64,000 nucleotides of DNA from an uncultured Spirochaetales bacterium (lineage in GTDB: Bacteria > Spirochaetota > Spirochaetia > Sphaerochaetales > Sphaerochaetaceae), in assembly GCA_949293335.1 (NCBI GenBank), contig CASFDA010000005.1, forward strand, positions 1 through 64,000, in the 5' to 3' direction. The stretch's first letter is position 1, and every line of letters begins with the position of its first letter. The notes beneath the pieces were generated by a model. That model was not told the origin of the DNA. It searched no databases and saw only the letters and a list, made by a program, of their open reading frames with translations. Positions 6,389 to 40,360 of the stretch are shown in pieces. Position numbers and translations under genes: made by a program.

Positions 6389-6572
6389 AATTGAACCAGG
6401 GAAGACATCCGGAGCGAATCCCCAGTCTGTTCTTTCCGACCTCTTTTCCATACCTCCAACGGAGGGATCTGGCTGGATATAGTTTATCATATTTTCAACA
6501 AATGTGTGAAGACAGGGCACATAATTACCATTATGGCAAATGATTAGCAGAAAAATGCAAAAATTAATGAAA

Positions 6573-15931: not shown

Positions 15932-15960
15932 TAAAAAACCCTCATGAGGATTCATGAGGG
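15932..15960 (-). terminator. terminator of the LarA operon overlapping the lipoprotein stop codon
   Basis: CCCTCATGA (15939-15947), loop GGAT, TCATGAGGG (15952-15960): a 9-bp perfect stem. On the minus strand it is followed by TTTTTT. The last codons and stop of the small lipoprotein are built from this stem. Confidence 0.9.
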
Positions 15961-16098
15961 ATCAAAGTTTATCGCAGTACCCATATTGAGCTCCATCGAA
16001 AAATTTATTCCGTTCTCACTTGCACTCTTTTCCCCGCCACTTGATGCACAGGAAAAGAGAAAAAGCAGGAGCACAAAAATCAGGATAGTGCGGAACAT
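15952..16098 (-). CDS. 48-aa lipoprotein
   Basis: Missed by length filters. Starts MFRTILIFVLLLFLFSC; the lipobox LFSC-A gives lipidation at Cys17, followed by only 31 residues (ASSGGEKSASENG...INFDPS). ATG lies 1 nt after the stop of the VOC gene, so it is probably translated by coupling. Its stop falls inside the operon terminator. Function unknown; no homology recognised. The clean signal, the operon position and the absence of another use for the stretch support it as a real gene. Confidence 0.6.
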   Translation of the reverse strand: MFRTILIFVLLLFLFSCASSGGEKSASENGINFSMELNMGTAINFDPS

Positions 16099-16099
16099 G

Positions 16100-16408
16100 T
16101 CAGATGATCTCAATAAGAAGACCTGTCGGGATCACAACCCAGTTCTTACCCTTCTCCATCGAGTGGGATCCTTTCTCATATGCCTTCTCGATAGCTTCTT
16201 CAACATTATCAACCTTCAGGCAGATGTGATCCATCCCCACAAACGGTTTGTCTTCTCCCTTGATGAGCTGGATCATCTCATCAAGCCATAGCTGTGTCTT
16301 GTCATCGTTCCACTTTGACACTTTCAGACCGAACACGTAATCGAAGAAATCGATATACCAGTCCACGTCCTTTGCATATATTGCTACGTGATCAAGCTTT
16401 GTCCCCAT
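16100..16408 (-). CDS. VOC-superfamily (glyoxalase-like) protein
   Basis: 102 aa from ATG 16408, chosen for GGAGG 9 nt upstream; an in-frame ATG at 16426 has none. One beta-alpha-beta-beta-beta VOC module pair: KLDHVAIYAKDVDWYIDFFDYVFGLKV and GMDHICLKVDNVEEAIEKAYEKG. The His residues in LDHVAIY and MDHICLK are at metal-ligand positions of the family. Substrate unknown; the catabolic operon suggests an isomerase, epimerase or lyase acting on a pathway intermediate. Confidence 0.8.
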   Translation of the reverse strand: MGTKLDHVAIYAKDVDWYIDFFDYVFGLKVSKWNDDKTQLWLDEMIQLIKGEDKPFVGMDHICLKVDNVEEAIEKAYEKGSHSMEKGKNWVVIPTGLLIEII

Positions 16409-16475
16409 TTCTCTTGTTCCTCCCATGAAAAAGGGAGAAAGTCTCCTTCCTCCCCCAGTTATGATGTAAAAATCG

Positions 16476-17282
16476 TCAGATGTACTTTGCTCTCAGGAAC
16501 TCAACTGCCCTCTTTGCAGCTGTATCCGGATCAGGATAAGGCAGGCACTCTACTGTGCACCAGCCATCATACTTGATCTTTCCAAGTGCGCTGAAGACAT
16601 CGTCAAAATCCAGATGTCCGTCTCCAGGAGCATGACGCTGTGAAGATGCAAGATGGATGTACTTCACATACTTCTGGTTCCTGATGAGAGCCTCTCCGAT
16701 ATGTGCATCCTCAATGTTCATATGGAACACATCAGGCATCATCATGAAATTCTTCCTGTTGATCTTGTCCAGAAGCTCAGTACACTGGTCAAGGTTATTG
16801 ATGTAATCGATCTCATACCTGTTCACAGGTTCGAGAATAAGGGTCACACCCTTTGTCTCTGCATAATCAGCCACTCTGTTTGCCATATCGAGGAAAAGGG
16901 TTTCACAAAGATTCTTGTCCCTTCCAGCGATCTGTCCGCGTACCCGTCCGATGTTAACAAGTCCGCCAAACTCAGATGCGAGATCAATAAAGCCCTGGAA
17001 TGCCTTGTAAACCTCTTCTCGCCTCTCTTTGTCCTCATCTGTAAACATGAGGCCACGGGCAGCATATACCTGACCTGAAGAGATGGCACTGACTTCCATG
17101 TGATTGTCTTTCAGCAGTCTTCCAAGTTCCTGATGTGTGATCTCTCCTGGATCCTTGAGAGCAAGCTCAACACCATCGTATCCATACTCGTGGGCTTTCT
17201 TTATAGACTTCTCAAGCCCTCTCATCACGACGAATGCTGAAGGAAGAGCATTGTCTGATGCGATTGCAACACCAAGTTTCAT
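16476..17282 (-). CDS. sugar phosphate isomerase/epimerase-like TIM barrel protein
   Basis: 268 aa, AP-endonuclease-2/xylose-isomerase-like fold. Candidate metal ligands are Glu in LILEPVNRYEIDYINN, Asp/His in MMPDVFHMNIED, His in YIHLASSQRHAPGDGHLDF and Glu in WCTVECLPYPDPD. This matches hydroxypyruvate isomerase/ketose 3-epimerase relatives. Likely interconverts a ketose or sugar acid. Starts 6 nt after the stop of the LarA gene in the same operon. Confidence 0.85.
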   Translation of the reverse strand: MKLGVAIASDNALPSAFVVMRGLEKSIKKAHEYGYDGVELALKDPGEITHQELGRLLKDNHMEVSAISSGQVYAARGLMFTDEDKERREEVYKAFQGFIDLASEFGGLVNIGRVRGQIAGRDKNLCETLFLDMANRVADYAETKGVTLILEPVNRYEIDYINNLDQCTELLDKINRKNFMMMPDVFHMNIEDAHIGEALIRNQKYVKYIHLASSQRHAPGDGHLDFDDVFSALGKIKYDGWCTVECLPYPDPDTAAKRAVEFLRAKYI

Positions 17283-17288
17283 AATGAA

Positions 17289-18674
17289 TCACTCCTTTTG
17301 ACTGCGAGGTATCTCGTAAGGACCCTCTGCTATATAGATGATTGACATATCCTCAATCTTCTTTCCACTCTTTTTCGAAATATCTTCAAGCGCCTTGTCG
17401 ATAGCCACCTGATAGATTCCCTTGTCACTCTCATCTGTTCCCTTGTCAAAGAGGGATCTGATCTCAACTCCAGGCTGGAGCTGATAATATCCATGAGTGA
17501 TCTGCGGAGCATATTCGTAATAGTGGTCCTGCGGAATGCGGTCAAACACCTTCGCCCACTGCTGGACCTGCCACTGCTCAGGAAGGAACACCCAGTCTGG
17601 AGAGACAAGGAGCTTCACAAAATCCTTGCTTCCAAGAAGATGAAGGAGCGCAAGGGTCACTCTGTAGTTGGCACTTCCAATAACATGTCCCTTGTCGGTC
17701 GCATTTCCGATAGCGACAAGATATCCATCCTTCTTGAGTGCACCGAGGGAAGCAACACCGCATTTTGCAAACTGATAATGGTTGATTCCAACAAAGCCTG
17801 CATTGGTAAGGACAATATCAGCTTTTTCTGGAACCGGCACTTCAACAACATCCCTAATCTTCTCTACAGCTGCAAGATGTGCCTTCTCCAGATCTCCGGA
17901 GAATACGCCAGTGACTTCAAACGAATGATTGAGAGTAACGTTCACAATAAAGTCAACTCCTGCAAGCTTCGCGACAGCAAGGGACTCCTCGTGAACAGGA
18001 TTGTTTTCTAGATTCAGATCTCTGGCGTTCTCATCTGCCATCAGTGCCGGACCATGAAATACGTAGGTAGATTCCTCTCCGATCAGACCGGGACAGATTG
18101 TCTTCCTTCCGCCAGAAACACCTGCCATGAAATGGCTTTCAACCAAGCCTGTTGCGATCTTCAAATCCGCATTCATATACAGCGTGTCGATCATGGCCTT
18201 CGTGCCACGCTTTGTAGTTCCTACGAAAGTAAGCCTTGACTCGTCCTTTGGAAGATGGTTCTTGATCTGTACTCCGAGAGCAAATACCCTCTCGTCGATC
18301 ATGTTCCTGAGCTCTTCCTCTTTCATCTCGCGATGCATTCCTGTCGCGACGAGAACAAGGATATCCTCGGCGCGGTAGCCCGCGTCGAGGAGTGTCTCAA
18401 TGACAGGTAAAAGAATGCCAGAATCCCCTTTGTAAGGAACAGGTCTCGTGTTGTCACTGACAGCTATGCAAGCTGTCGGATGTTCCTTGGAACCTTTCTT
18501 CTCTAGTGCTACTTCCTTCAGACTCTTTGAGCCGATCGGATGTACAAGAGAATCACTTATCGCCTTCTTCGGATCACTGAGCACTTCCGGGTTCTTCATA
18601 TGTGCCACGAAAGTATGCTCAGGAAGTACGAGATCTGAAAACTCCTTTCCTAGTGGGTTTGGAACTCTAAGCAT
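17289..18674 (-). CDS. LarA-family nickel-pincer racemase/epimerase
   Basis: 461 aa. All key positions of lactate racemase LarA are present with the same spacing: Asp74 and Arg77 (SDNTRP), His114 (ATGMHREM), His181 (VESHFMAGVSGG), Lys191 (the residue linked to the nickel pincer cofactor) and His207. LarA homologues racemise or epimerise 2-hydroxy acids such as lactate, malate or sugar acids. The family needs LarB/C/E for its cofactor, and those genes are not in this window. Located between the alcohol dehydrogenase and isomerase genes; substrate probably a 2-hydroxycarboxylate used by the operon. Confidence 0.9.
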   Translation of the reverse strand: MLRVPNPLGKEFSDLVLPEHTFVAHMKNPEVLSDPKKAISDSLVHPIGSKSLKEVALEKKGSKEHPTACIAVSDNTRPVPYKGDSGILLPVIETLLDAGYRAEDILVLVATGMHREMKEEELRNMIDERVFALGVQIKNHLPKDESRLTFVGTTKRGTKAMIDTLYMNADLKIATGLVESHFMAGVSGGRKTICPGLIGEESTYVFHGPALMADENARDLNLENNPVHEESLAVAKLAGVDFIVNVTLNHSFEVTGVFSGDLEKAHLAAVEKIRDVVEVPVPEKADIVLTNAGFVGINHYQFAKCGVASLGALKKDGYLVAIGNATDKGHVIGSANYRVTLALLHLLGSKDFVKLLVSPDWVFLPEQWQVQQWAKVFDRIPQDHYYEYAPQITHGYYQLQPGVEIRSLFDKGTDESDKGIYQVAIDKALEDISKKSGKKIEDMSIIYIAEGPYEIPRSQKE

Positions 18675-18695
18675 TTCTTTTCACCTACCTAATAA

Positions 18696-19979
18696 TTACA
18701 TTTCCTTGATGATGGAAAGATCACCTGTAGCAGCTGCCTTGAGAATTGGGAGCATGTACTCATCAACGTCATCAGCTGTCATTGGAACTGGCATGTTCTG
18801 AAGCTTCATCTTCAGATCAGGATCCTTTGCTGCTGCAATAGCTCTTGTGATATGAACCTCTTCCTTGAAGCCCTTGAGATCAGAAAGCTTTGTAGGAGCT
18901 CCGATGCTCTTGGAGAAGTTGATCATAGCTTCTGCTACTGCCATTGCAAGATCTCTGCCCTCAAGCTTGTCCATATCCTTGTCAGAATATCCATGAGCCT
19001 TGAAAATGTTGCCTACAACGTGGAGCTGAGGCTGAATTGCCTTGCTGTAGAATACAGCATAGTACGGATTCATAAGACCGCAAGCAGTTCCGTGGCTTAC
19101 AATGTCAACGAGGCTGAAGGATGTGAGGTGTGCACCACTTGTTCCTCCGACCATGATTGCATAGCCGCCAAGGTCTGTTGCAAGACCGATAGCCTCTCTT
19201 GCCTTCTCGTCCTTAGGATTCTTCACAACGTCCTTAGCATATGTTGTAACAAGACCGATTGCGCACTCAGCAAGCTCTTTTGCCTCATCATATGCCTCAC
19301 CCTTAGCGCCACAGAATACCTCGAAAGTATGTGCAATTGCGTCAAGAGCTCCATCAAGTGTTACACTCAGTGGCATTGTGCAAGTTACCTTGTAATCGAA
19401 GATAGCATGTGCAGGTGTGATCGCAGGATCAACAATAAGCTTCTTCTGTCCAGCAACTGGGTCAGTGATGTTTGAATACTTTGTCAGGTGTGCGCCTGAA
19501 GATGCAGATGTCTCAACAGCAACAACTGGAGTCATCTTAGCTCCTGTCTCCTTGAGGAATGCTGTGACCTTTCCTGTTCCGAAGTACTCATCGATCTCTG
19601 GAGTTACCTTCTCGCCAAGTGCAGCGAGCATGCTAGCTGCCTTACAAGCATCGATTGTTGAACCACCGCCAACAGCAACGATGCAGTCTGGCTTGTACTG
19701 AAGAACATATGTTGTGAGGCGATATACGTCCTCTCTTGGTGCGTTTGGCTTTACATCTGGAGCAATATTACCACCAGCAAGCTCAACACCTGCCTTCTCG
19801 AGATAACCCTTGATCTCGTCAGCAACTGGCTTCATATAAGTATAGTTGGAGACAAGGAGAGCCTTCTTTCCATATGATGCAGCAACAGGGCCAACTTCCT
19901 TGAGGCAGCCGAGTCCGAAAGTGTAGGCATCGCCCTTCCACTTCTTAAGAAGGTCATATGACCTCTTCATGTAGTCCAT
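18696..19979 (-). CDS. iron-dependent (group III) alcohol dehydrogenase
   Basis: 427 aa from ATG 19979, which has AAAGGAG 6-8 nt upstream. Nucleotide site VAVGGGSTIDACKAASML (GGGSxxD), and metal-binding histidines in LDGALDAIAHTFEVF and VDIVSHGTACGLMNPYYAVF. Oxidises or reduces a primary or secondary alcohol with NAD(P). In this operon it may act on a hydroxy acid or sugar alcohol partner of the LarA product. High-confidence family, unknown substrate. Confidence 0.92.
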   Translation of the reverse strand: MDYMKRSYDLLKKWKGDAYTFGLGCLKEVGPVAASYGKKALLVSNYTYMKPVADEIKGYLEKAGVELAGGNIAPDVKPNAPREDVYRLTTYVLQYKPDCIVAVGGGSTIDACKAASMLAALGEKVTPEIDEYFGTGKVTAFLKETGAKMTPVVAVETSASSGAHLTKYSNITDPVAGQKKLIVDPAITPAHAIFDYKVTCTMPLSVTLDGALDAIAHTFEVFCGAKGEAYDEAKELAECAIGLVTTYAKDVVKNPKDEKAREAIGLATDLGGYAIMVGGTSGAHLTSFSLVDIVSHGTACGLMNPYYAVFYSKAIQPQLHVVGNIFKAHGYSDKDMDKLEGRDLAMAVAEAMINFSKSIGAPTKLSDLKGFKEEVHITRAIAAAKDPDLKMKLQNMPVPMTADDVDEYMLPILKAAATGDLSIIKEM

Positions 19980-20054
19980 TTTGTACTCCTTTCCAGGCCA
20001 GAAAGGCCTGGATAAAATCAAAAATCTAACAACCTGAATATAGTCAGGGCTACC

Positions 20055-20987
20055 TTATTTGGCAAGGAGCTCCTTGACTGTCTTCACGATGTTATCTGCA
20101 GAAAGACCATACTTTGCAAGAAGATCTGTGTAAGGTCCTGTCTCGCCGAACTTGTCGTTGATAGCGATGTTGCTTACCTTGCACTTGATCTGCTCCGGGA
20201 ATGCCTTTTCTGCAATAGCGGATGCAAAACCACCAGCAAGGAGATGCTCCTCAACTGTAACAAGAGCACCTGTCTTCTTCACAGAAGCAAAGAGGGAATC
20301 TGTATCAAGTGGCTTGACGAACGGTACGCTGAATACCTCTGCGCTGATTCCTTCCTTCTTCAGAAGTGCCTCAGCCTCAACTGCCATGCTGGCTGTAATT
20401 CCATTAGCAGCGATAGTGACATCAGTTCCTTCTGTGATCTTGATAGCCTTGCAAGCCTTGAAATCCTCTTCCTTTGTCTCGATGTCAGGCATAGCATTCC
20501 TGTTGAGTCTGATATATACAGGCTTCTTTACAGAAAGAGCATACTCGAGAGCAAGTTCTGCCTGATGGGAATCGGAAGGTACGATGACTTCCATGTTCGG
20601 AAGAGCACGGAAGATAGCAATATCTTCGATTGCCTGATGGCTTGCGCCGTCGAATGAGTCTGAAAGTCCGCCATAAGCACCTGCGATGATTACAGGAAGC
20701 TTGTTGTAGCACATATCATTCCTGATCTGATCAAGGCTCTTGAGGGAAAGGAAGATTGCGAATGCGTTGATAACCGGATGATAACCGCATGTAGCAAGAC
20801 CTGCGGCCATGCCAGCGAGGTTACCCTCTGCAACGCCAACGTTATAGAATCTCTCAGGGAACTCCTTGCCGAAGAGGGCACTCTTCGTGGAGGATGAGAC
20901 ATCTGCATCAAGAACAACGAGTTCAGGATGCTTCTTACCCATTTCTACAAGATGCTTTCCAAAAGCATCACGCATTGCCAAACTCAT
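20055..20987 (-). CDS. transketolase, C-terminal subunit
   Basis: 310 aa. Pyrimidine-binding half: VVLDADVSSSTK, RFYNVGVAEGNLAGMAAGLA (the Glu activates ThDP), and FDGASHQAIEDIAIFRALPNMEV, then a C-terminal domain with LVTVEEHLLAGGFASAI. Forms one active site with the N-terminal subunit encoded just upstream (4-nt overlap). Split transketolases in catabolic operons transfer a C2 unit from a pathway-specific ketose phosphate. Confidence 0.93.
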   Translation of the reverse strand: MSLAMRDAFGKHLVEMGKKHPELVVLDADVSSSTKSALFGKEFPERFYNVGVAEGNLAGMAAGLATCGYHPVINAFAIFLSLKSLDQIRNDMCYNKLPVIIAGAYGGLSDSFDGASHQAIEDIAIFRALPNMEVIVPSDSHQAELALEYALSVKKPVYIRLNRNAMPDIETKEEDFKACKAIKITEGTDVTIAANGITASMAVEAEALLKKEGISAEVFSVPFVKPLDTDSLFASVKKTGALVTVEEHLLAGGFASAIAEKAFPEQIKCKVSNIAINDKFGETGPYTDLLAKYGLSADNIVKTVKELLAK

Positions 20988-21874
20988 AGAAGCGCCTCCT
21001 TCTTGTCAGCATCAGCATTGAGCTGCTTGATACCAATCTCATAGTGCTCATCGTCGATAGCTGCTCCATGCCATGTGTTCTTGCCTTCGGAGAAGTCTAC
21101 GCGTGCACCCTTGATTGTGTCGTAGATACATGCCTTCGGCCAGATGTCATCACTGTCCATCCATTCGAAGGACTTGAGGATATCCTCAGTGTTGTTTCCG
21201 TCATACTTTTCTTCGTTGACGTGCCAGCCAAATGCCTTGAGCTTGTCTCTCAGTGGCTCGAGGTCGAGGATCTGTGATTCTGTACCATCAAGCTGTACCT
21301 TGTTGTAGTCAATCATGAGGATAAGTCCCTGTGGCTTGTACTTTGCAGCTGCAAGGAAGGCTTCCCAAGTTGATCCCTCATCAAGGCATCCCTCACCTGT
21401 CATGACATATGTCTTGTAGTTCTTTCCGCTGAGACGGGCTGCCTCTGCCATGCCAAGAGCTACGGAAACACCATGTCCGAGAGCACCTGTGCTCATGTCA
21501 ACTCCAGGAATCTTGAGCATTGCAGGATGTCCCTGAAGATAGCTGCCGAGCTTTCTGAAAGAGTGCACATCCTCAAGAGGGAAATAGCCCCTTGCACCAA
21601 GAACTGTGTAATAGTTTACACTTGCATGTCCCTTGGAAAGGATGAAGCGGTCACGATCTTCCCAGCTTGGATTCTTCGGATCGATGTTAAGCCTGTTGAA
21701 GTAAAGGCTTGTCGTAAGCTCAATAGCACTAGATGAACCACCCCAGTGTCCTGTCTGTCTCTCATGAAGTACAGTGAACATGATTTCCCTGAAACATGCC
21801 GCTAGATACGCAAGTTCTTTTGCGTTCATCTTGCGGGAAGGATCAGAGAGCAATTCCATCAACTTTTCCCTCAT
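20984..21874 (-). CDS. transketolase, N-terminal subunit
   Basis: 296 aa from ATG 21874 (AAGGAGAAG upstream). ThDP/Mg2+ half with HWGGSSSAIELTTSLYF, RDRFILSKGHASVNYYTVL, GALGHGVSVALGMAEAARL and the GDG-like TGEGCLDEGSTWEAFLAAAKYK. First gene of the GntR-controlled operon. Acts with the downstream C-terminal subunit. Confidence 0.93.
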   Translation of the reverse strand: MREKLMELLSDPSRKMNAKELAYLAACFREIMFTVLHERQTGHWGGSSSAIELTTSLYFNRLNIDPKNPSWEDRDRFILSKGHASVNYYTVLGARGYFPLEDVHSFRKLGSYLQGHPAMLKIPGVDMSTGALGHGVSVALGMAEAARLSGKNYKTYVMTGEGCLDEGSTWEAFLAAAKYKPQGLILMIDYNKVQLDGTESQILDLEPLRDKLKAFGWHVNEEKYDGNNTEDILKSFEWMDSDDIWPKACIYDTIKGARVDFSEGKNTWHGAAIDDEHYEIGIKQLNADADKKEALL

Positions 21875-21909
21875 TTTTCTTCTCCTTGTGCAAAAGATGA
21901 TTTTTGCTT

Positions 21910-21925
21910 TTGTATACAATATACA
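21910..21925. promoter_or_regulatory. GntR operator-like palindrome 1
   Basis: TTGTATACAA (21910-21919) is a perfect 10-bp palindrome, and TGTATA-CAA-TATACA is a wider one covering 21911-21925. It lies 36 nt before the transketolase start and 145 nt before gntR. FCD-type GntR proteins favour such TTGTATAC-like sites. Confidence 0.65.
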
Positions 21926-21996
21926 TATCATGGAAAAATTCAGATGTCAAACTCTTTTTTGCCATCTCAACTTATTAAATTATATAATATTGAATT

Positions 21997-22014
21997 TTGT
22001 ATACGATACACCAA
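21997..22014. promoter_or_regulatory. GntR operator-like palindrome 2
   Basis: TTGTATACGATACACCAA contains TGTAT-ACG-ATACA. It shares TTGTATACnATA with palindrome 1 about 87 bp away. Paired sites in a divergent promoter suggest autoregulation together with operon repression. Confidence 0.65.
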
Positions 22015-22069
22015 ATTTATTTGACTACCACCCTTTTCTCCTTTAATATCGAAAACATAGGTGGAATAG

Positions 22070-22711
22070 ATGAAAATCGTACGTGAAAGCCTGGCGGATC
22101 AGGTTTACAAATCCGTGAAGGATGAAATACTCAATGGCAATCTGAAGTTCGGAGACAAGATAAGCGAGGACAGTCTCGCAATCCAATTCGGAGTCTCAAG
22201 GACACCTATCCGGGAAGCATTGAGAATGCTTTCTGAGTATGGCCTTATAGAGCTCTCCCCTCGCTCACACGCATCGATCGCATTCATCTCTGACGAGGAT
22301 GCAAGGGATATAGCGGACCTGAGGATTGATCTTGAGCTTTTTGCGCTCGACCATATCAAGGAAAGCGTCTTCTTGAAAATGCTTCCTGAAATTTCACGTT
22401 ATGCAGCCGACTGCCAGTATGCGTCTTCTGTCGGAGATAGGGCAAAGTCATTCGAGCAGGACAGTCTATTTCATCTCGCCATCGTCAAAAGCACTGGGAA
22501 CAAGGCCCTTATAAACGCCTATGAGAAGCTTGACGCGAAGATCCAGATGCTCAGAGTTGAGCAGAATCTTCCCGAAGGAAGGCTCAATGACTATCTGATG
22601 CAGCACCTGAAGCTTATCGAATTGCTGAAAAACGGCAGGATCGATGATGCGAAAACGCTGACGGCAGATCATATCAAACACGAAAGCGGAAGAGCTTTCC
22701 AAGAAAAATAA
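22070..22711 (+). CDS. GntR-family regulator, FCD (FadR) subclass
   Basis: 213 aa. N-terminal winged helix (about 5-70) with ISEDSLAIQFGVSRTPIREALRMLSEYGLIEL. The C-terminal all-helical FCD domain (75-205) has metal/ligand residues in the pattern D-x3-H (DSLFHLAI), then H in MQHLKLIELL and ADHIKHE. FCD regulators bind carboxylic acids and release DNA. Divergent from the split transketolase/LarA operon, with two matching palindromes between them. Confidence 0.92.
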   Translation: MKIVRESLADQVYKSVKDEILNGNLKFGDKISEDSLAIQFGVSRTPIREALRMLSEYGLIELSPRSHASIAFISDEDARDIADLRIDLELFALDHIKESVFLKMLPEISRYAADCQYASSVGDRAKSFEQDSLFHLAIVKSTGNKALINAYEKLDAKIQMLRVEQNLPEGRLNDYLMQHLKLIELLKNGRIDDAKTLTADHIKHESGRAFQEK

Positions 22712-22758: not shown

Positions 22759-23421
22759 TTATTTTTCAAGCTCGTGAAGCTTGTCAACGACCTCGGCAAT
22801 ACATGTTTCCGGACTTGTGAGCACGGTCTTTGCAGTTGCCTCTTCGCAAAGCTTCTTAGCAGTTGCCATTGAAGCCTGTGCGAGCACGATGACGTCGGCA
22901 TCCTTGCAAGTCCTGCTCAGATCTGCAAGTCTTGCGTCATGCCCCTTCACGTCCCCTGCATTCAGAAGAGTCATGGCTTCTGTGTCAAGATAACTTTTTA
23001 CAACTACTTTCTTCTTCGCTTTCTCCGCCTCTCCCAATATTTTGGAGACTGTCGGATCTACAGTAGTAGGTGCGGTTGCGAGAACAGCAATATTGCTCCC
23101 TCTCACCACGGCCTCCCTGCACATTGCATCATCAATAGAGACAATCGGCATCGGGAATGAAGCGAGGATCTCCTTCACAAAAGGAGTGAGGGAAGAACAG
23201 GTAACGCAGATAAGATCTGGATTCTCGAGAGAAGCGGAAAGAAGATCAAGATAGAGCTTCTGTCTGTTCTCTGGCGGAAAATACCCTTTCTTCTTTGCGT
23301 TAGTGACAAGGAATTCGTCAAGAAGACTTGTCACCTCAAGTTCTTTTCCATAAGCCCCGATAAGCTGTGAAGGAAAAGATTCATATACGCTTTTGACGGT
23401 GTGTAACAATGTTACCTTCAT
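22759..23421 (-). CDS. Asp/Glu/hydantoin racemase-family protein
   Basis: 220 aa. The first catalytic segment LICVTCSSLTPF carries Cys75; the region of the second catalytic cysteine reads VIVLAQASMA, with no Cys. Two-cysteine racemases use both residues, so this one-cysteine version may be an isomerase, decarboxylase-like enzyme or racemase of a different type. Last gene of the pdxA2-tct operon, after an attenuator hairpin. Its own Shine-Dalgarno (GGAG) lies just after that hairpin. Confidence 0.8.
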   Translation of the reverse strand: MKVTLLHTVKSVYESFPSQLIGAYGKELEVTSLLDEFLVTNAKKKGYFPPENRQKLYLDLLSASLENPDLICVTCSSLTPFVKEILASFPMPIVSIDDAMCREAVVRGSNIAVLATAPTTVDPTVSKILGEAEKAKKKVVVKSYLDTEAMTLLNAGDVKGHDARLADLSRTCKDADVIVLAQASMATAKKLCEEATAKTVLTSPETCIAEVVDKLHELEK

Positions 23422-23433
23422 GATTCCACTCCA

Positions 23434-23462
23434 AAAAGGAGGGGGACTTTGAAATCCCCCTC
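23434..23462 (-). terminator. attenuator hairpin after tctC (copy 1)
   Basis: GAGGGGGA (23439-23446), 8-nt loop, TCCCCCTC (23455-23462), followed on the minus strand by TTTTT. It lies between the binding-protein stop and the racemase start, so it probably reduces downstream expression and stabilises the tctC end. Confidence 0.75.
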
Positions 23463-23484
23463 ATTGCTTTTTCAAGCTTTATGC

Positions 23485-24471
23485 TTACTTGTCCTTACCA
23501 ATCTGCTGCAGGTAATCTACCTGGAACTCAGTCATGTATTCTTTTGCTGCATGCCTGTCAAGATACATTGGAACAAGACCATTCTTAGTGATGTATGCTT
23601 CCCATTCCGGAGTCTGAGCAACCTGAGCAAAGATACCTGACCAGTAGTCAGCAGCGGCTTCTGACATTCCACCAGGTCCGACAATTCCTCTCCAGTTAGG
23701 AACATCACATGCCTCGTAACCGAACTCTACGATTGTAGGCATATCCTTGAGAAGCTCTGTCTCGAAGCGATTCTCTGAAAGTCCCACGATCGGTGTCATG
23801 CGGCCTGCGAGAATGTACTGCTCACAAGATGCTGGCTTACCAAGAACGAGATCAACGTGTCCTCCGAGGAGAGCAGTGATTGCAGAAGAAGTACTGTCGT
23901 TCGTGATATATGCGAGCTTTGTCTCGTCTACACCAAGAGACCTGAGCATAGCATTGTATGTCTCAATGTCGTCGCCCTTGCTTCCTGCGATGACAACTCT
24001 TTCACCAGCTGCGAGAGCGTCAAGTACATCCTGGAAAGTCTTGTACTTTGAAAGCTCTCCTGTGAGGATGAGGTGATTGTCAACAGCCATGAGAGCAAGC
24101 GGTGTGAAGTTCTCAATACGGTTATTTGTATTCAGACACATCGGCATGAGGTCTCCAGAGTTGAAGGTGAGGATGTTGTGGTTGGCCCTTGGTCCTGTAA
24201 GACGGGAAACGTTGAGCCTTCCTACCTCTCCACCACCATCTGTCTGATAGTCGATAACGATGTTCGCATCAGAGAAATGATTGGTTGTGATGGAGTTCTT
24301 GATCTCCTGTGTGAAGATGTCAGATCCACCTCCTGGGCTGGATGTGCATGTCCATGTAACAGTCTGTGACGGTGTGAATGAGTCACCACTTCCCCCGTCG
24401 CTTGCGCCGCCGGCAAATGCCATTGAGCAAACAAGGAGCAGCGAGAAGGCAAGTACTAATACCTTTTTCAT
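23485..24471 (-). CDS. tctC: TTT transporter solute-binding protein (TctC family), copy 1
   Basis: 328 aa, secreted. Signal peptide MKKVLVLAFSLLLVCSMAFA with GG after it, then the Bug/TctC fold: WTCTSSPGGGSDIFTQ near the N-terminus, ITALLGGHVDLVLGKPASCEQYI and VEFGYEACDVPNWRGIVGPGG. Binds a carboxylate in the periplasm and delivers it to TctAB. Encoded directly after tctA; followed by an attenuator hairpin. Substrate unknown. Confidence 0.92.
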   Translation of the reverse strand: MKKVLVLAFSLLLVCSMAFAGGASDGGSGDSFTPSQTVTWTCTSSPGGGSDIFTQEIKNSITTNHFSDANIVIDYQTDGGGEVGRLNVSRLTGPRANHNILTFNSGDLMPMCLNTNNRIENFTPLALMAVDNHLILTGELSKYKTFQDVLDALAAGERVVIAGSKGDDIETYNAMLRSLGVDETKLAYITNDSTSSAITALLGGHVDLVLGKPASCEQYILAGRMTPIVGLSENRFETELLKDMPTIVEFGYEACDVPNWRGIVGPGGMSEAAADYWSGIFAQVAQTPEWEAYITKNGLVPMYLDRHAAKEYMTEFQVDYLQQIGKDK

Positions 24472-24494
24472 TTTATATCCTCCTATTGTTTGGA

Positions 24495-26012
24495 TTAGCC
24501 ATTTTTCTTCTTCGTTACACCAGCTTTGCGAAGGATGAACTTCACAACTGGGAATGCGCAGAATCCGATGAGAATAATCGTCAGTACAGTAGCGATACCA
24601 CTTGCGAAGAAGACTTCGCTGATATCTCCAGCTGTAGAGATGAATGCCTTTCTGATGTTGTCCTCAAGAAGCGGAGCGAGTACGAATGCAAGAAGCATAG
24701 GTGCTGTCGCATAGCCGTTCTTCTCGAAAATATATCCGCATACACCAGCGATGAGCATGATCATAACTCCGAAGAGTGAGTATGTGGATGCATATGCTCC
24801 TACGAAACAGACAATCATGACGATAGGAATCATGAGCTTGATAGGAACCTGCAGGATCTTCAGAAGAGCAGGAATAACACCAAGGGAGATTGCAAGCGCT
24901 ATGATGTTTGAAATGAAGAGCGATGCAATGAGGCCCCAAGCGAAGTCCGGATCGTTCTGGAAGAGAAGTGGTCCAGGGTTCAAGCCCCACATCATGAGTC
25001 CGCCAAGGAGAACTGCGCCTGTACCTGATCCCGGGATACCGAGGGCAAGCAGAGGAGCAAAGCTTCCGGCAGCTGCTGCGTTGTTTGCAGACTCACTTGC
25101 TGCAATACCTTCAATAGCACCTGTTCCAAGCGGCTCTTCGCTCTTGAAACCTTTCTGCATAGCGTATCCAAGGAATGCTGCGGATGTAGCACCTGCTCCA
25201 GGAAGAACACCAACGAAAGTTCCGATAAATCCAGCTCTCAGTGATGGTCCGAGGAGTCTCTTGTAGTCATGCGCTGTAAGCATGGAGCCACGAATTGTGA
25301 GCTTCATATCTACAGTCTTTACCTTGATATCCTTCTCGTCCATAAGCTTCATCAGCTGTGCAAAACCTACAGTTCCGATAACGAATGGGATGAACTCTAC
25401 TCCACCGAGGAGGTAGATATTTCCGAAATCGTAACGTGGAGCACCTGTCTGTACATCCATACCGATCGATGCAACGAGGATACCGATGAGCGAAAGGAGA
25501 ATACCTGTTGTCGGGTTATCACCAACGAGCCATCCGATACTTGTCATTGCGACAAGAAGAAGGATAGTCATCTCCGCCGGTCCGAAAAGAAGACCGAGCT
25601 CAGCAAGTGCTGGTCCCAGGAAGGTGAGGATGATCATGCCGACAATACCACCGATACACGATGAGGCATTAGCGGTCATGAGCGCCTGTCCAGGACGTTT
25701 CTTTACCGTTGCCATCGGATAACCGTCAACGGCTGTCATAACTGCAGGTGAGTCACCAGGGATGTTCAGAAGAATAGCTGAGAACGCACCGCCGTACATG
25801 TTCGAATAGTAAAGCGCACCAAGCATGATGATGGCTGTTGTAGGATCGAACTTATATGTCAGAGGCAGAAGAAGTGCAACTCCAGCAAGCGATCCGATAC
25901 CAGGCATAGCTCCTACGATAAGGCCGAGAATAGAGCCGAAGAGACATGCAAAAATATTATCAAATGTGAAGACGATTCCAAAACCATGGAACAGCCACAT
26001 TAAGTTTTCCAT
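24495..26012 (-). CDS. tctA: TTT transporter large membrane subunit (TctA family), copy 1
   Basis: 505 aa with about 12 membrane segments. Family signatures: GAMPGIGSLAGVALLLPLTYKFD near the start, YSNMYGGAFSAILLNIPGDSPAVMTAVDGYPMA, and GVLPGAGATSAAFLGYAMQK plus LLALGIPGSGTGAVLLGGLMMWGLNPGPLLF in the second half. Forms the Na+/H+-driven uptake channel with TctB. Good Shine-Dalgarno AAGGAGG. Between tctB and tctC. Confidence 0.95.
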   Translation of the reverse strand: MENLMWLFHGFGIVFTFDNIFACLFGSILGLIVGAMPGIGSLAGVALLLPLTYKFDPTTAIIMLGALYYSNMYGGAFSAILLNIPGDSPAVMTAVDGYPMATVKKRPGQALMTANASSCIGGIVGMIILTFLGPALAELGLLFGPAEMTILLLVAMTSIGWLVGDNPTTGILLSLIGILVASIGMDVQTGAPRYDFGNIYLLGGVEFIPFVIGTVGFAQLMKLMDEKDIKVKTVDMKLTIRGSMLTAHDYKRLLGPSLRAGFIGTFVGVLPGAGATSAAFLGYAMQKGFKSEEPLGTGAIEGIAASESANNAAAAGSFAPLLALGIPGSGTGAVLLGGLMMWGLNPGPLLFQNDPDFAWGLIASLFISNIIALAISLGVIPALLKILQVPIKLMIPIVMIVCFVGAYASTYSLFGVMIMLIAGVCGYIFEKNGYATAPMLLAFVLAPLLEDNIRKAFISTAGDISEVFFASGIATVLTIILIGFCAFPVVKFILRKAGVTKKKNG

Positions 26013-26033
26013 ACTCTGTTTCCTCCTTCCTTA

Positions 26034-26507
26034 TCAATATCCGCGGATCAGCTCAACGATCATACCGGCAGGGAAACTGACGCCAAGCCACATCGTGAAG
26101 ATAGGAATGACGATTATGAGACAGAAGATAACGCAGATAATTGTTGTCTTCCAGCTCATCTTCTCATACCACTTCACCCAAAGAATTTCGAAAAGAATTA
26201 CAGCAGGAACAGTTCCGATGACCATGAGCGCAACGATGAAAAGCGCAAAGCCAAATGGAACATACCAGTTCCTCAGATGGTACTCAACACTCTTAGCCTT
26301 GAGACTCTGCAAGAATGCCAGAACGCTGAATATGCAGAGCAAGACCGCAACGATTACCGGGAAGAACCCAGCCGTAGGTGTGTTTGTTGTGGAGTTCCAG
26401 AATCCGTAATTCTTCAGTCCCACTGAAAGGAATACTACCCCGACAATCAATCCCACTACAGGAATCAACTGCAGAGAAGGAACCTTAAAAGTCTTATCTC
26501 CTTTCAT
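26034..26507 (-). CDS. tctB: TTT transporter small membrane subunit (TctB family), copy 1
   Basis: 157 aa, four hydrophobic segments (about 12-30, 47-68, 80-108, 120-145), the normal TctB layout. Contains GFFPVIVAVLLCIFSVLAFLQS. Works with TctA in the inner membrane. Poorly conserved by nature; assignment relies on topology and its place upstream of tctA. Confidence 0.88.
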   Translation of the reverse strand: MKGDKTFKVPSLQLIPVVGLIVGVVFLSVGLKNYGFWNSTTNTPTAGFFPVIVAVLLCIFSVLAFLQSLKAKSVEYHLRNWYVPFGFALFIVALMVIGTVPAVILFEILWVKWYEKMSWKTTIICVIFCLIIVIPIFTMWLGVSFPAGMIVELIRGY

Positions 26508-26608
26508 TTTCCCTCCATTTTCTCTCTTTAGAAATTATCCAATCCGGGATGAGTGTAATCATCCCGGAAATGAAACCTGAATAAATGTGTGAACTAGAAA
26601 CTGGCTGA

Positions 26609-27622
26609 TCAGCCGTTTACCTCATGAAGGTGTGTTGCCATCTTTGTGCACATCTTTACCGCATTTTCAAATGCGCTTGTCTTTACGATGCCCTTTCCTG
26701 CAATGTCATATGCAGTTCCATGTGCACATGTGACGATTGGGCACGGAAGACCTCCGGCAATTGTGATTCCCTGATCAAAGCCCTTGAGCTTGAGCGCAAT
26801 CTGTCCCTGATCGTGATACATTGTCACGACACCATCGAACTCACCGCGGAATGCTCTAATGAAGAGGATATCTGACGGGAATGGTCCCTGAGCATCAATG
26901 CCCTGGCTCTGTGCCTTTTCAATTGCTGGCTTGATGACATCAATCTCCTCTGTTCCGCAAAGTCCGTTCTCACCTGCATGAGGATTGAGAGCTGCGATTG
27001 CAAGACGTGGCTTTGCAAGTCCGCTGTTCTTCAGCGATACGTTCGCAAGGGTTATTGCCCTCATGATCGAATCGACTGTTAGGTGACTGCTGACTTCTTT
27101 GATAGGAATATGGCTTGTTGTTCTTGTTGTCCAGAGATCTGCACAGACATTGATCTCTCCGAACGGTGCTGTGTGATTGAATTCATGAGCAAGAAGGTGA
27201 TGCTCGCTTTCAAATGGACATCCAGCTTCCTTCATTCCAGCCTTGTTAAGCGGTGCGAAGCAGAAGCCTTCGATCTTCTTTTCCTTATACAGCTTGACTG
27301 CATATGTGAGCATGTCAAGGTTTGCCTTTCCACAAGCGACTGTAAGCTTTCCGATAGGAGCATCATTTGGATCAAGGTTGTTCCTGTTGAGCATATTGTA
27401 TGCCTCACCGTCCCAGTTAGCTTCACTTGGATCGGAAATTTCTTTGATCTCTGCTTTACCCCCAATCATCGAAAGAGCTCTCTCGATAATTCTTCTGTCT
27501 CCGATGAGAATTGGCCTGCAATGCTCATTCAGGAATCCGGAAACCATACACTTTGCAACGATCTCAGGGCCTACTCCTGCGCCATCGCCAAGAAGGATGC
27601 CCAATACTGGCTTATAACCCAT
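26609..27622 (-). CDS. PdxA2-type 4-hydroxythreonine-4-phosphate dehydrogenase homologue
   Basis: 337 aa. Begins LGILLGDGAGVGPEIVAKC and carries the family's metal-site region SEHHLLAHEF and ALNPHAGENGLCGTEEIDVI, with VVTMYHDQGQIALKLKGFD. NAD-dependent oxidative decarboxylation of a phosphorylated hydroxy acid. It heads a transport operon rather than a pyridoxine cluster, so the PdxA2 role (sugar-acid catabolism) is more likely than vitamin B6 synthesis. The usual partner kinase (DUF1537/DtnK) is not in the window. Driven by the sigma-54 promoter at 27685-27704. Confidence 0.88.
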   Translation of the reverse strand: MGYKPVLGILLGDGAGVGPEIVAKCMVSGFLNEHCRPILIGDRRIIERALSMIGGKAEIKEISDPSEANWDGEAYNMLNRNNLDPNDAPIGKLTVACGKANLDMLTYAVKLYKEKKIEGFCFAPLNKAGMKEAGCPFESEHHLLAHEFNHTAPFGEINVCADLWTTRTTSHIPIKEVSSHLTVDSIMRAITLANVSLKNSGLAKPRLAIAALNPHAGENGLCGTEEIDVIKPAIEKAQSQGIDAQGPFPSDILFIRAFRGEFDGVVTMYHDQGQIALKLKGFDQGITIAGGLPCPIVTCAHGTAYDIAGKGIVKTSAFENAVKMCTKMATHLHEVNG

Positions 27623-30588: not shown

Positions 30589-30600
30589 CTCATCTCCCCC

Positions 30601-31041
30601 TTAGAAATTGATTCCAATCCAAGTTCCCATTGGAAGGATGACAGACAGCACTCTTGTGAAAAGCAGGTACAGAACAAGAGTGAGGATCGGAGGGAACAGG
30701 AAGAAGACAGCACTCTTCTTCAGTCCCAGCATCCACTGCCCTATGTATAGGAACAAAAGAGTGCTGAGAATATATCCGATTTTCGACATCAGCATCAGGT
30801 AGATGAAGATGACGATAGCAAACTCAAGTATTTTCATTATTGAGGACTTATCAAGGGCCTCCACTTCAGGCTGCTTTTTCCTGAAAATGAGGACTAGTGC
30901 CATGATTATTCCAGTTATTATGAATACCAGAGGATAGTTCTTTGCCTCTGCAGGGATTTCTCCGACCTGAGTGAAAAAAGCAATCAGGACAAGAAGAAGG
31001 CAGAAGATGAATATCCTGTGGCTGGTCAAGAATTTATTCAT
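30601..31041 (-). CDS. tctB: TTT transporter small membrane subunit (TctB family), copy 2
   Basis: 146 aa with four hydrophobic stretches (about 8-24, 33-50, 68-95, 105-140). Sequence is low in conserved motifs as usual for TctB; contains LFLYIGQWMLGLKKSAVFF. Lies between tctC copy 2 and tctA copy 2. Confidence 0.87.
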   Translation of the reverse strand: MNKFLTSHRIFIFCLLLVLIAFFTQVGEIPAEAKNYPLVFIITGIIMALVLIFRKKQPEVEALDKSSIMKILEFAIVIFIYLMLMSKIGYILSTLLFLYIGQWMLGLKKSAVFFLFPPILTLVLYLLFTRVLSVILPMGTWIGINF

Positions 31042-31078
31042 ACTTTAACAAACTCCCTTCGGATATTAACAAATATCC

Positions 31079-31100
31079 CCCTGAGAAAAGACTCTCAGGG
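31079..31100 (-). terminator. attenuator hairpin after tctC (copy 2)
   Basis: CCCTGAGA (31079-31086) pairs with TCTCAGGG (31093-31100). Only a weak T-rich stretch follows on the minus strand, so partial termination or mRNA stabilisation between tctC and tctB is more likely than full stop. Confidence 0.6.
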
Positions 31101-31120
31101 AGATTGGATCATTGATTATT

Positions 31121-32086: not shown

Positions 32087-32122
32087 GTTGTATCCTCCCT
32101 TTTTCTCTTTTTTCCCTGACAA

Positions 32123-32510: not shown

Positions 32511-32532
32511 GGGACGGGGGGAAACCCGTCCC
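32502..32532 (-). terminator. terminator after dctP
   Basis: GGGACGGG (32511-32518), loop GGGAAA, CCCGTCCC (32525-32532), followed on the minus strand by TTATTTTTT. Ends the cyclase-dctQMP unit. Confidence 0.85.
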
Positions 32533-32552
32533 GAAGAGAAAATGGAATTCCT

Positions 32553-36153: not shown

Positions 36154-38043
36154 CTACTCCGAAGCGAGATTTTTGAGCTTTCTCCATAGCGTAGTACGCG
36201 AAATTCCCTTCATCTTCGCAAATTCTGAAAGTGTTAGTCCGCTTTCGTTAAATTCATTGAAGAGCTCAGCCGGAGATTCCTTCTTTCCATGACTTTCTAC
36301 TGTATTTTCTGTTTGTACATCTTCGATCGTCTCGCTCTCAGGAATATCGATTGAGAGTATCGTCTCATCGGTAATCGGCAGACTTCCATTGAGGACGATT
36401 ATGCGCTCTGCAACATTCCTAAGCTCCCTGATGTTGCCATCCCACTTGTAGCGGTGCAGCAGGGCAAGTGACGATGTGTTTATCTCAGGCATCTGGATAT
36501 GCATGCGCTCTGCATCGAGACGGATGAAGTGCTGGAAAAGGAGATCTATATCCCCTCCCCTCTCCCTCAGTGGCGGAATATGAAGGGCAAGGAGGTTTAT
36601 CCTGTAATACAGGTCTCTTCTGAAAAGGCCTTTCTCTACAAGGTCTGGAATATTCTGGTTCGTGGCGCTCATTATCCTCACATCAACAGGAACGATCTCA
36701 TCCCCGCCGACTTTGCGAATCTCTTTTTCCTGAAGTACCCTCAAGAGTTTTGCCTGAAGATTTAGTGGCATCTCCCCTATCTCGTCAAGGAAGATGGTTC
36801 CACCGTGGGCAAGTTCGAAAAGTCCGCGTTTTCCCCCTTTACGAGCACCTGTGAAAGCCCCATCAGCATAGCCAAAGAGCTCTGACTCCAGAAGCTGTTC
36901 TGAAATCGCAGCACAGTTTATCGCGACAAAAGGGCCATCTGCCCTCTGGCTTGCATTGTGCATGGACTGCACGAAAAGCTCCTTTCCTGTCCCTGTCTCT
37001 CCTGTCAGGAGCACATTGCCCTCCGCCTGGGCATATCTGATCGCTTTGGCTATCAGCTGGCGCATTTTTATATTATCTGCAACGATATCGGAAAAATGAT
37101 AACGGGCCCTGAGTCCCTTTTCCCCGATCTTGTCCCTCACCTTTTTCTCTGTATTGAAGAACTGCTCGACCTTCTGCATCGAAATGAGGATCCCGTCTTC
37201 CTCTTCGCCACCTGAAAATGGAGTCTGGGTGACAAGCATCTCAGTCCCTTTCACCGACTGCACAATATCAAGATTCTCATGATTCTTGATCGTGAGAGAA
37301 GCTACATTGTCAGGGAAGAACTCTGAAAGGGCGTGTCCCACAAGATCTTTTGAAGAAAAGAAGAGAGATGCTGCATCATTTGCCGCAATGATGGTCTGGA
37401 AGCGGTTCACGGCAATCAGAATTGAGGGGATGCTGTTCACGATCGTATTGGTGATCTTCGCCCTGGTCCTCTCCTTGTCGAGGATCATTGCAGCATTTAG
37501 AGCTTCCTTGATCGTCCTTGTGATAGTCACATCACTTGTCATCAGCTGTTCGTACGGGATATTCCTTTTGCCGGCATAGCTTCCGACGGTAAGGCCACCG
37601 ACAATCACCTTGCATCCGCTTTCAAGGAGTTCATCGATCGCGATATTCACGTCATCTTCGTCATGGACTTCCCTGACATCGACATCAAAACCAGTGAGGC
37701 TCTTCAGCACATTCGATCCAGAGATCGTTATATCAGGAAGGATGATCCCGACTTTAACCAGCCCCATCTTCTTTTTTATCTGATAGAGCGCATCAAGGAT
37801 GTCGGTATTGCTCATCGGGATCTCGACTACATGCACATCAGGGCATGCATTACGTACAGCAAGATATGTCATGCCGCGAACGACTACAATATCATATCCC
37901 TTGATCTGATCGATTACCTTCTTGCCGGTTCCATAGGCATATGTAGTGGAGAAATTAACTTCCTTGACCCGGATCCTTCCAATGGCCTTCTCATAATTTT
38001 CCCCTATCCCCGGATACGGGATGACGACAAGAATATTGATCAT
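36154..38043 (-). CDS. PrpR-type sigma-54-dependent transcriptional activator
   Basis: 629 aa from ATG 38043. An N-terminal PrpR_N-like sensor (about 1-190) is followed by a PAS-like domain (about 195-300), then an AAA+ domain with Walker [11 protein letters not shown], the sigma-54 contact loop GAFTGA (in [15 protein letters not shown]), Walker [13 protein letters not shown] and the R-finger region [22 protein letters not shown], and a C-terminal Fis-type HTH ([25 protein letters not shown]). PrpR_N domains bind small carboxylate-derived signals. It is the only such activator in the window and the natural candidate for the sigma-54 promoter at 27685. Confidence 0.93.
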
Positions 38044-38129
38044 GAAATCAATTTTCAACAATTTGGGCGAAGAGGACAAGTGGCAATTCAGACGTTGCAA
38101 CTACCTTGAAAGAAAACTATGATTTCCCT

Positions 38130-39223: not shown

Positions 39224-40360
39224 TTATTTTTCTGTTGCTCTCTGGAACCTGATGAGGTTATCTACAGTGAGTGCAAGATCCTTCTTTGCCCTTGGTCTAG
39301 CCTCGAGGTACGGAACTGCAACCCTGTTGATTGAGAAAATACCGACAACTCCTTCGTTATACGCACCCTCGACAGGATCCTTGATATCTCCAACGAAAGC
39401 GACAACAGGAACGTTCTTCTTCTTCGCCTTCCTGGCAACGCCTATCACGACCTTACCTCTGAGCGACTGGCCATCGATTCTTCCCTCGCCTGTGTAGACA
39501 TAATCGGCACCCTCAAGAAGCTCATCGAAATGCACTGTATTGAGAACTGTCTCGATGCCCATCTGAAGCTCTGACTTGAAGTATGCAGCCATCGCACCAC
39601 CCATGCCACCTGCAGCGCCGGAACCAGGAATCTTCTGGACATCTACTCCTGTCGCTTCCTCGATCTTGGAAGCAAGGTACTTCATCTTACCGTCAAGAAG
39701 CTCAACCATCTTTTCGTCAGCACCCTTCTGCGGGCCGTATACGTAACTTGCACCTTCCTTTCCATAGAAAGGATTGTCAATGTCACACATCGTGATGATC
39801 TCAACACCTTTGAGGCACTCATTGATAGTAGATGTATCTATCTTGTCAACTTCATCAAGATTTCCGCCTGTAGGCACAAAAGCCTCTCCCTTCTTGTTAT
39901 AGAAGGTAACGCCCATGCCTGCCGCTATTCCGCTTCCTCCGTCATTTGTTGCACTTCCGCCAAGTCCGATGATGATCTTCTTTGCTCCACCCTTAGCAGC
40001 TTCAACCATCAGTTCACCTACTCCATATGTAGTTGTAAGGAGCGGATTCTTTCTGTCCTCGACCATAGGAAGTGCTGCCGCAGCAGCCATCTCCACTACG
40101 GCAGTTCCATCTGGAAGGACACCGTAGTAACCATTCACCTTCTCTCCAAAGAACGGTCCTGTCACTTCCTTATATTTCTTCTCTCCTCCCAAAGCCTCGA
40201 GGAACGCATCTACAGATCCCTCGCCGCCATCTGCGACAGGAATAGAGATCACCTCACACTCAGGATAGTACTTGAGCACGACCTCTTTCATGATTCCACA
40301 GACTTCTGCAGATGACATCGTCCCCTTGAATGAATCGGGAATGAGAATAAGCTTCTTCAT
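39224..40360 (-). CDS. glxK: glycerate kinase (type I, GlxK family)
   Basis: 378 aa. N-terminus MKKLILIPDSFKGTMSSAEV, then GGEGSVDAFLEALGG, GLGGSATNDGGSGIAAGMG and PGSGAAGGMGGAMAAYF, the standard GK-I landmarks, with VYTGEGRIDGQSLRGK near the end. Phosphorylates D-glycerate to 2-phosphoglycerate. Its place near the carboxylate transporters suggests it feeds their breakdown products into glycolysis. Own transcript with a terminator after it. Confidence 0.94.
   Translation of the reverse strand: MKKLILIPDSFKGTMSSAEVCGIMKEVVLKYYPECEVISIPVADGGEGSVDAFLEALGGEKKYKEVTGPFFGEKVNGYYGVLPDGTAVVEMAAAAALPMVEDRKNPLLTTTYGVGELMVEAAKGGAKKIIIGLGGSATNDGGSGIAAGMGVTFYNKKGEAFVPTGGNLDEVDKIDTSTINECLKGVEIITMCDIDNPFYGKEGASYVYGPQKGADEKMVELLDGKMKYLASKIEEATGVDVQKIPGSGAAGGMGGAMAAYFKSELQMGIETVLNTVHFDELLEGADYVYTGEGRIDGQSLRGKVVIGVARKAKKKNVPVVAFVGDIKDPVEGAYNEGVVGIFSINRVAVPYLEARPRAKKDLALTVDNLIRFQRATEK

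Follow-up and report, generated by a model that had tools for sequence, protein, structure and literature searches.

A candidate sugar-diacid pathway around a split transketolase, an iron-type alcohol dehydrogenase and a LarA homologue in an uncultured spirochaete

What could a split transketolase (TK), an iron-type alcohol dehydrogenase (Fe-ADH), a homologue of the racemase LarA and an isomerase do together next to one GntR regulator? The question is raised by the window, the 64,000-nucleotide stretch analysed here, which opens contig 5 (CASFDA010000005.1) of an uncultured Spirochaetales bacterium (GCA_949293335.1; 1.92 Mb in 35 contigs, 99% complete) whose closest named relatives are Bullifex-like Spirochaetaceae. 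Comparison with related loci makes it credible that the gene set is a conserved, apparently undescribed pathway of known enzyme families. We regard it as probable that Fe-ADH and LarA turn tartronate semialdehyde into glycerate and then racemise the glycerate, and we put at about an even chance the broader prediction that this operon and its neighbour together encode a single route for the breakdown of a sugar diacid (hexarate).

Family searches found all six genes and the divergent regulator where a first-pass annotation of the sequence had placed them (16100-22711), arranged as follows:

16100..16426, minus strand: VOC protein (glyoxalase/methylmalonyl-CoA epimerase fold; PF00903)
16476..17282, minus strand: predicted ketose-acid epimerase, IolO-like, of the tagatose-3-epimerase family (NF041099, 3.2e-77; TM0416 alignment)
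17289..18674, minus strand: LarA homologue, predicted glycerate racemase (PF09861, 2.9e-44), an enzyme of the nickel-pincer nucleotide (NPN) cofactor
18696..20021, minus strand: Fe-ADH, predicted tartronate semialdehyde reductase (PF00465, 7e-33; conserved start at 19979, MDYMKRSY)
20055..20987, minus strand: TK C-chain, TKC (PF02779/PF02780; nearest solved chain the C. hydrogenoformans split TK 6yaj, 4.6e-84)
20984..21931, minus strand: TK N-chain, TKN, with the thiamine diphosphate (ThDP) domain (PF00456, 9e-49; aligned relatives suggest a true start near 21874)
22070..22711, plus strand: GntR/FCD regulator, divergent (PF00392, PF07729)

Because the TKN and TKC genes share 4 nt and the remaining gaps (75, 21, 6 and 49 nt in operon order) span 6-75 nt, the genes from TK to the VOC protein are likely one transcript, and their arrangement is kept across relatives well above chance. 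The listed genes held up, but the set extends further than first proposed: an adjoining operon (22759-27622) encoding a PdxA-like dehydrogenase, a TctABC importer and an Asp/Glu-racemase family protein also belongs to it, with a glycerate kinase at 39224-40360.

An alignment scan of a genome collection with the Fe-ADH recovered 251 relatives, of which the best 80 loci were analysed; relatives at 58-96% identity occur in at least 80 genomes of Spirochaetota, Bacillota and Synergistota. The window Fe-ADH retains the Asp/His/His/His metal ligands in the alignment. Directly upstream of the Fe-ADH gene, among the 65 loci with enough sequence to be informative, lay TK in 36 and a glyoxylate-carboligase-like ThDP enzyme in 8 more, while one locus (L075) had a galactarate-dehydratase-like gene with two proteins of the dihydrodipicolinate synthase (DHDPS) family there and another (L091) an enolase-superfamily sugar-acid dehydratase with a DHDPS-family aldolase. 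Mapped on the Fe-ADH tree, the carboligase context required at least three changes and the TK context at least eight, indicating that contexts were swapped repeatedly. Tartronate semialdehyde is a compound that these varied upstream enzymes could share, and Fe-ADH is most likely a tartronate semialdehyde reductase, as predicted from gene context alone. Loci of termite-gut Treponema (L103, L117, L119 and others) combine the carboligase-like ThDP enzyme with Fe-ADH and LarA, and some of them add FAD oxidoreductases (PF12831) and ABC sugar transporters. Their ThDP enzyme is nearest to glyoxylate carboligase, yet has a Glu of the acetolactate synthase type, and these loci may represent another uncharacterised pathway.

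LarA lay at most 3.2 kb downstream of Fe-ADH in 49 of 71 loci, and one operon (L099, with a truncated counterpart in L059) reads TKN-TKC-FeADH-IolO-LarA-glycerate 2-kinase. The first-pass statement that the nickel-pincer residues of LarA are kept was borne out: the window protein has the Lar_N domain, NPN ligands and two catalytic His of the LarA superfamily, and retains the NPN-binding and catalytic motifs SDNTRPVP, TGMHRE, ESHFMAG, GGRK, FHGP and YQFAK. It scored 253 bits against lactate racemase proper (NF033504), under the cut-off of 460. The displacing LarAs of L099 (626 bits) and L110 (568 bits) exceed that cut-off, the one in L099 being a full lactate-racemase-family member of a different clade that replaces the usual LarA. 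Full-length LarAs of both clades beside Fe-ADH carry Trp-Gln at LarA positions 358/359, and LarAH43, which has Gln359, uses glycerate at least as efficiently as lactate (PMC11770544). The nearest solved chain to the window protein is the broad-spectrum I. pallida LarA 9eid, and the window LarA appears to bear a short-chain hydroxyacid (lactate/glycerate) signature. It is from the Fe-ADH contexts, the glycerate 2-kinase of L099 and the Trp-Gln pair together that we draw the glycerate half of the pathway.

The genome also holds the cofactor genes LarE, LarB and LarC and two glycerate kinases. The LarE-LarB-LarC genes (C21:20000-27000, L141) adjoin an FmdE-like gene and the ATPase gene of a metal-type ABC transporter. 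A second LarA homologue of 429 aa (C5:159921, L140) shares its operon with an aminotransferase and with genes of an amino-acid ABC transporter, which suggests that it acts on a different 2-hydroxyacid. Among related loci, a protein of DUF362, the outgroup family of LarA, adjoins GntR or the operon in L060, L062, L065-L068, L072, L074, L076, L080, L082 and L090, which are from Sphaerochaeta-type genomes, often where LarA is absent. In L071 (14312-15625) and L073 (2331-3635) an NPN isomerase of 'group 22' (NF052515, 537 bits in L071) sits beside the TK-FeADH operon and may substitute for LarA.

Of the 45 TK-type loci, 21 contained PdxA (17 of the 23 whose upstream sequence reaches at least 9 kb), versus none of the 35 others, and IolO was present in 34 of the 45 versus 4 of the 35; these counts are descriptive, as the loci are related and their flanks differ. 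One further TK-type case (L066) has PdxA just outside the counted stretch. The order in L104, L116 and L123 is PdxA-IolO-VOC-TKN-TKC-FeADH-LarA; L083 and L092 differ from this only in having TctBAC after PdxA and ahead of IolO. In congeners of the window bacterium the order is PdxA-TctB-TctA-TctC-Asp/Glu-racemase-(VOC)-[GntR]-TKN-TKC-FeADH-LarA-IolO, and PdxA is preceded by a PrpR-type sigma-54 regulator. The corresponding window features are:

22759..23421, minus strand: Asp/Glu/hydantoin-racemase family protein (PF01177, 2e-12)
23485..24471, minus strand: TctC-type binding protein, weakly like the terephthalate-binding protein 8hkb (7.7e-12)
24495..26012, minus strand: TctA membrane subunit (79-88% identity in congeners)
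26034..26507, minus strand: TctB-like small membrane subunit (from its position and conservation between TctA and PdxA)
26609..27622, minus strand: PdxA-family beta-decarboxylating dehydrogenase with no phosphate site (TIGR00557, 263.5 bits; motif comparison)
36154..38100, minus strand: PrpR-type sigma-54 regulator (PF00158, PF06506; directly upstream of PdxA in relatives by synteny)
39224..40360, minus strand: glycerate kinase, likely the final step (PF02595, 4.7e-131; TIGR00045)

Other transport genes (27.9-36 kb) stand between the PrpR-type regulator and PdxA in the window, with the glycerate kinase beyond. Relative to congeners the stretch 27932-36032 is an insertion, carrying an amidohydrolase with TctA and a TctC-type binding protein, and TRAP DctP/M with a cyclase-family protein. 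This comparative context does not bear out the order of reactions first proposed, in which LarA epimerises, Fe-ADH oxidises and TK then cleaves: it has PdxA and the IolO-like epimerase acting ahead of TK, followed after the cleavage by Fe-ADH, working as a reductase, and LarA, working on the C3 product.

The PdxA copies of the TK clusters differ from phospho-acid dehydrogenases at the phosphate site. Their three metal-binding His (H171, H215, H270) are invariant in the alignment, and the motifs GHTE and GVNITxGLPFIRTSVDHG, which we take from the E. coli PdxA structure to carry the 4-phosphate contacts, are replaced in every TK-cluster copy that spans them, by SEHH (SELE in three distant copies, SEHY in one) and by GITIAGGLPxPIVTCAHG or close variants. 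The same motifs are kept in PdxA beside a DUF1537 kinase (L043, L045; G049, G069) and in solved PdxA and threonate-4-phosphate enzymes. Because the phosphate-site motifs are replaced, the TK-cluster PdxA is expected to take an unphosphorylated acid as its substrate. We looked for a kinase dedicated to PdxA and discounted it, the only DUF1537 gene of the genome being an orphan beside unrelated genes. The IolO-like protein is a xylose-isomerase-like TIM barrel closest to IolO, the 5-keto-L-gluconate epimerase, and belongs to the same family without being its equivalog. IolO and LguG epimerise HOCH2-CO-(CHOH)3-COOH (PMC12632266), which has one more carbon than the substrate predicted here. Four of the enzymes do not reach the curated threshold of the NCBIfam equivalog nearest to them: besides LarA, these are the IolO-like protein (259.5 against 300 bits for NF041099), PdxA (276 against 470, and 263.5 against 290 for TIGR00557, PdxA/4-phospho-acid dehydrogenase) and Fe-ADH (118 against 523).

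The TK is likewise altered where a substrate's head group would bind. Its C-chain retains R6, S33 and R160, and the His that contacts phosphate in the canonical RSFHR motif is Tyr105, as it is Tyr in all aligned TK-type relatives; nor does the site match the RAFDR motif of the sulfo-TK SqwGH. The only other TK of the genome (C13:229000-236000, L139) is also split and also without the phosphate His (TYAGITSEKNGG), and is flanked by a LacI regulator and a TRAP transporter. PF00456/PF02779 searches found no canonical TK and no DXS in the genome. L139 is possibly a second specialised TK pathway, or the genome may do without a housekeeping TK.

The sequences offer gene identities, conservation, signs of co-regulation, a lost PdxA phosphate site, a changed residue in the head-group site of TK and a convergence of Fe-ADH and LarA on glycerate, from which a route can be assembled. 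In step 1, TctABC would import a hexarate. In step 2, the PdxA-like enzyme would oxidise its beta-hydroxyl and decarboxylate it to HOCH2-CO-CHOH-CHOH-COO(-) (4-pentulosonate), CO2 and NADH; beta-hydroxyl oxidation with CO2 loss gives this same skeleton from any hexarate, and TK action on it leaves tartronate semialdehyde. In step 3, the IolO-like epimerase would set the ketone-adjacent stereocentre to the D-threo form used by TKs. In step 4, the split TK would use an aldose phosphate as acceptor for the C2 ketol unit, for example glyceraldehyde 3-phosphate to give xylulose 5-phosphate, and release tartronate semialdehyde, which Fe-ADH would reduce to glycerate in step 5, spending the NADH from PdxA. 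A D-threo donor would yield L-glycerate, which LarA, with its nickel-pincer cofactor, would racemise to D-glycerate in step 6, and in step 7 the glycerate kinase (39224-40360) would feed glycolysis. Bookkeeping over all hexarates showed that every path through a TK-competent D-threo pentulosonate leaves a fragment that is reduced to L-glycerate. To our knowledge, the known kinases act on D-glycerate, and for this reason the route would require a racemase. We infer every one of these reactions, above all steps 2-4 and hexarate as the substrate, as well as the direction of Fe-ADH and the epimerase's substrate. Xylulose-5-phosphate phosphoketolase was considered as the fate of the C2 unit and set aside, as the genome has no such gene; it does have a transaldolase.

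In relatives, regulation links the two operons. The region between TKN and GntR contains two palindromes, TTGTATACAA at 21910..21919 and TTGTATACGA at 21997..22006, 87 bp apart, which we consider putative GntR operators. The exact 10-mer TTGTATACAA is single-copy in the whole genome, and the palindrome motif recurs at the same position in some 20 relatives. An exact copy of the motif lies 40 bp upstream of PdxA in L062 (0.00 expected from shuffles), and near matches precede PdxA or TctB in L052, L104, L116 and L123. Because the operator motif also occurs upstream of PdxA/TctB there, the two operons appear to form one regulon in relatives, whereas the window bacterium has a clear site only on the TK side: upstream of its own PdxA there is no operator with at most one mismatch, and a two-mismatch site at 27815 is half-convincing. 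A promoter scan gave matches no more frequent than in shuffled sequence.

Several observations weigh against the hexarate route. True glyoxylate carboligase is not known to have the catalytic Glu, which the carboligase-like enzyme beside Fe-ADH retains, making the carboligase context weaker than it appears. LarA is missing next to Fe-ADH in several TK clusters of Sphaerochaeta and Treponema, although the genomes tested carry LarA elsewhere. Gln359 is present in the broad-spectrum I. pallida LarA too, which weakens it as proof of glycerate specificity, and we dropped the His-to-Tyr change as a unique marker of this TK since the genome's second split TK has it as well. The orphan DUF1537 kinase does exist in the genome. 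The model gives no role to the Asp/Glu-racemase family protein, for which a sequence search for solved relatives gave no match, or to the VOC protein, genes for which reappear in relatives at different positions. Finally, PdxA is absent from L073 and L074, where UxaE-like and transaldolase-like genes accompany TK-FeADH-LarA in its place, so not all loci share one feed substrate.

This last point favours an explanation that keeps TK cleavage and the same back half but has the imported acid be a keto-hexonate, a uronate-derived acid or a branched acid, converted to the ketose acid by PdxA or other enzymes. Tartronate semialdehyde would likewise result if a transaldolase cleaved a C6 ketose acid, and transporter type varies among loci (TTT, the tripartite tricarboxylate type; TRAP; ABC). 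In the PdxA clades, though, oxidative decarboxylation turns a hexarate in a single step into the very C5 ketose acid from which TK would release tartronate semialdehyde, and a uronate or keto-hexonate would make PdxA unnecessary; we therefore regard a non-hexarate feed as unlikely, if a serious contender. In L073 and L074 (positions 261-7114) the genes that accompany TK-FeADH-LarA encode a large transaldolase/FSA-like protein and an epimerase resembling UxaE. A transaldolase branch to tartronate semialdehyde is possible in these loci, and their use of such genes in place of PdxA suggests that carboxy-sugar TK/transaldolase routes form a wider family.

A pentarate or C4-acid variant of the scheme, in which PdxA would give a 3-keto-tetronate, TK glyoxylate or glycolaldehyde, and Fe-ADH glycolate or ethylene glycol, draws on the presence of such aldehyde reductases in Fe-ADH families and on weak matches to lactaldehyde and sulfoacetaldehyde reductase. 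Since neither glycolate nor ethylene glycol is chiral, LarA would be left with no substrate, and the L099 operon terminates in a glycerate 2-kinase, so this variant seems improbable. We give equally little credence to the absence of any single pathway, with TK serving general pentose metabolism and the other genes being loosely associated lactate/glycerate enzymes. The genome has only one other TK, beside a TRAP transporter, and the window TK could serve generally; but gene order and a private operator are conserved across many genomes, the PdxA/IolO association is restricted to the TK type, and the TK active site is altered.

A sulfonated or branched sugar, which the first-pass annotation had also entertained, is very improbable as the substrate, since the split TK beside an isomerase and Fe-ADH recalls the sulfo-TK scheme (PMC11659671) but has Tyr at the phosphate-His position rather than RAFDR, stands in an operon with no SqvD/SqwI-type isomerase, sulfonate exporter or kinase, and would leave PdxA and LarA, with its short-chain hydroxyacid signature, no role. 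The apulose and sulfoquinovose TK pathways were accordingly rejected on motif and gene content. The sulfo-TK pathway (SqwGHI; Clostridium MSTE9, Acholeplasma, Faecalicatena) does resemble the hexarate route in having a split TK act on a ketose with a non-phosphate head group, in its isomerase/epimerase, and in passing the aldehyde fragment to a dehydrogenase or reductase. Its sulfonate head group goes with a change from RSFHR to RAFDR (PMC11659671), whereas the window TK has His replaced by Tyr and keeps the Ser, and the scheme as described has no PdxA, LarA or glycerate kinase and exports its end product.

Other known systems share parts of the hexarate route. The galactarate/glucarate pathway (GarD/GudD, GarL, GarR, GarK) also takes a hexarate through tartronate semialdehyde and glycerate to phosphoglycerate, but by dehydration and a pyruvate-forming aldolase rather than oxidative decarboxylation and TK, with GarR in place of Fe-ADH and no racemase; the two window operons contain no hexarate dehydratase or aldolase, which only L075-type loci have. 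In the glyoxylate carboligase pathway (Gcl, GlxR, GlxK) a ThDP enzyme makes tartronate semialdehyde, which is then reduced and phosphorylated, but that pathway starts from glyoxylate and has no PdxA, IolO, LarA or TK, and the window operon has no carboligase gene, found only in related Fe-ADH loci. The threonate/erythronate pathway (DUF1537 kinase and PdxA2) shares oxidative decarboxylation of a sugar acid by a PdxA-family enzyme, but its substrate is phosphorylated, its PdxA keeps the phosphate site that the window's has lost, and there is no TK. The Thermotoga inositol route (IolO) and Luteolibacter LguG use a same-family epimerase on a ketose acid, but a C6 one whose product goes to a reductase and dehydratase, not TK. 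In terephthalate catabolism (TphB with TctABC/terephthalate-binding protein) a PdxA-family enzyme, TphB, acts on a non-phosphorylated dicarboxylate, terephthalate dihydrodiol, beside a TTT importer, but the substrate is aromatic, comes from a dioxygenase and meets no sugar enzymes.

The earlier reading is partly supported as a whole. Its view of a sugar-acid pathway under GntR with ketol (C2) transfer by the split TK gains support, and, as it had also stated, we found no described operon in the open-access literature that matches this set, no paper linking tartronate semialdehyde, TK and aldarates, and no description of the route. Our boldest reading, which is tentative and which we place a little short of an even chance, is that the set is a previously undescribed hexarate pathway with a phosphorylation-free PdxA, an epimerisation, TK cleavage of a carboxylated ketose to tartronate semialdehyde, an Fe-ADH reductase for that product and a nickel-pincer glycerate racemase made necessary by TK stereochemistry. 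If true, it would give gut and termite spirochaetes and some Bacillota a TK-based, redox-balanced route for sugar diacids, and would provide a physiological role for the glycerate racemisation by LarA left open by earlier work (PMC11770544). A large Fe-ADH subfamily would gain a function, as would a PdxA subfamily whose members now receive a default annotation as vitamin B6 enzymes. The pathway would also extend to carboxylated sugars the idea, known from sulfo-TK, that TKs take non-phosphate head groups.

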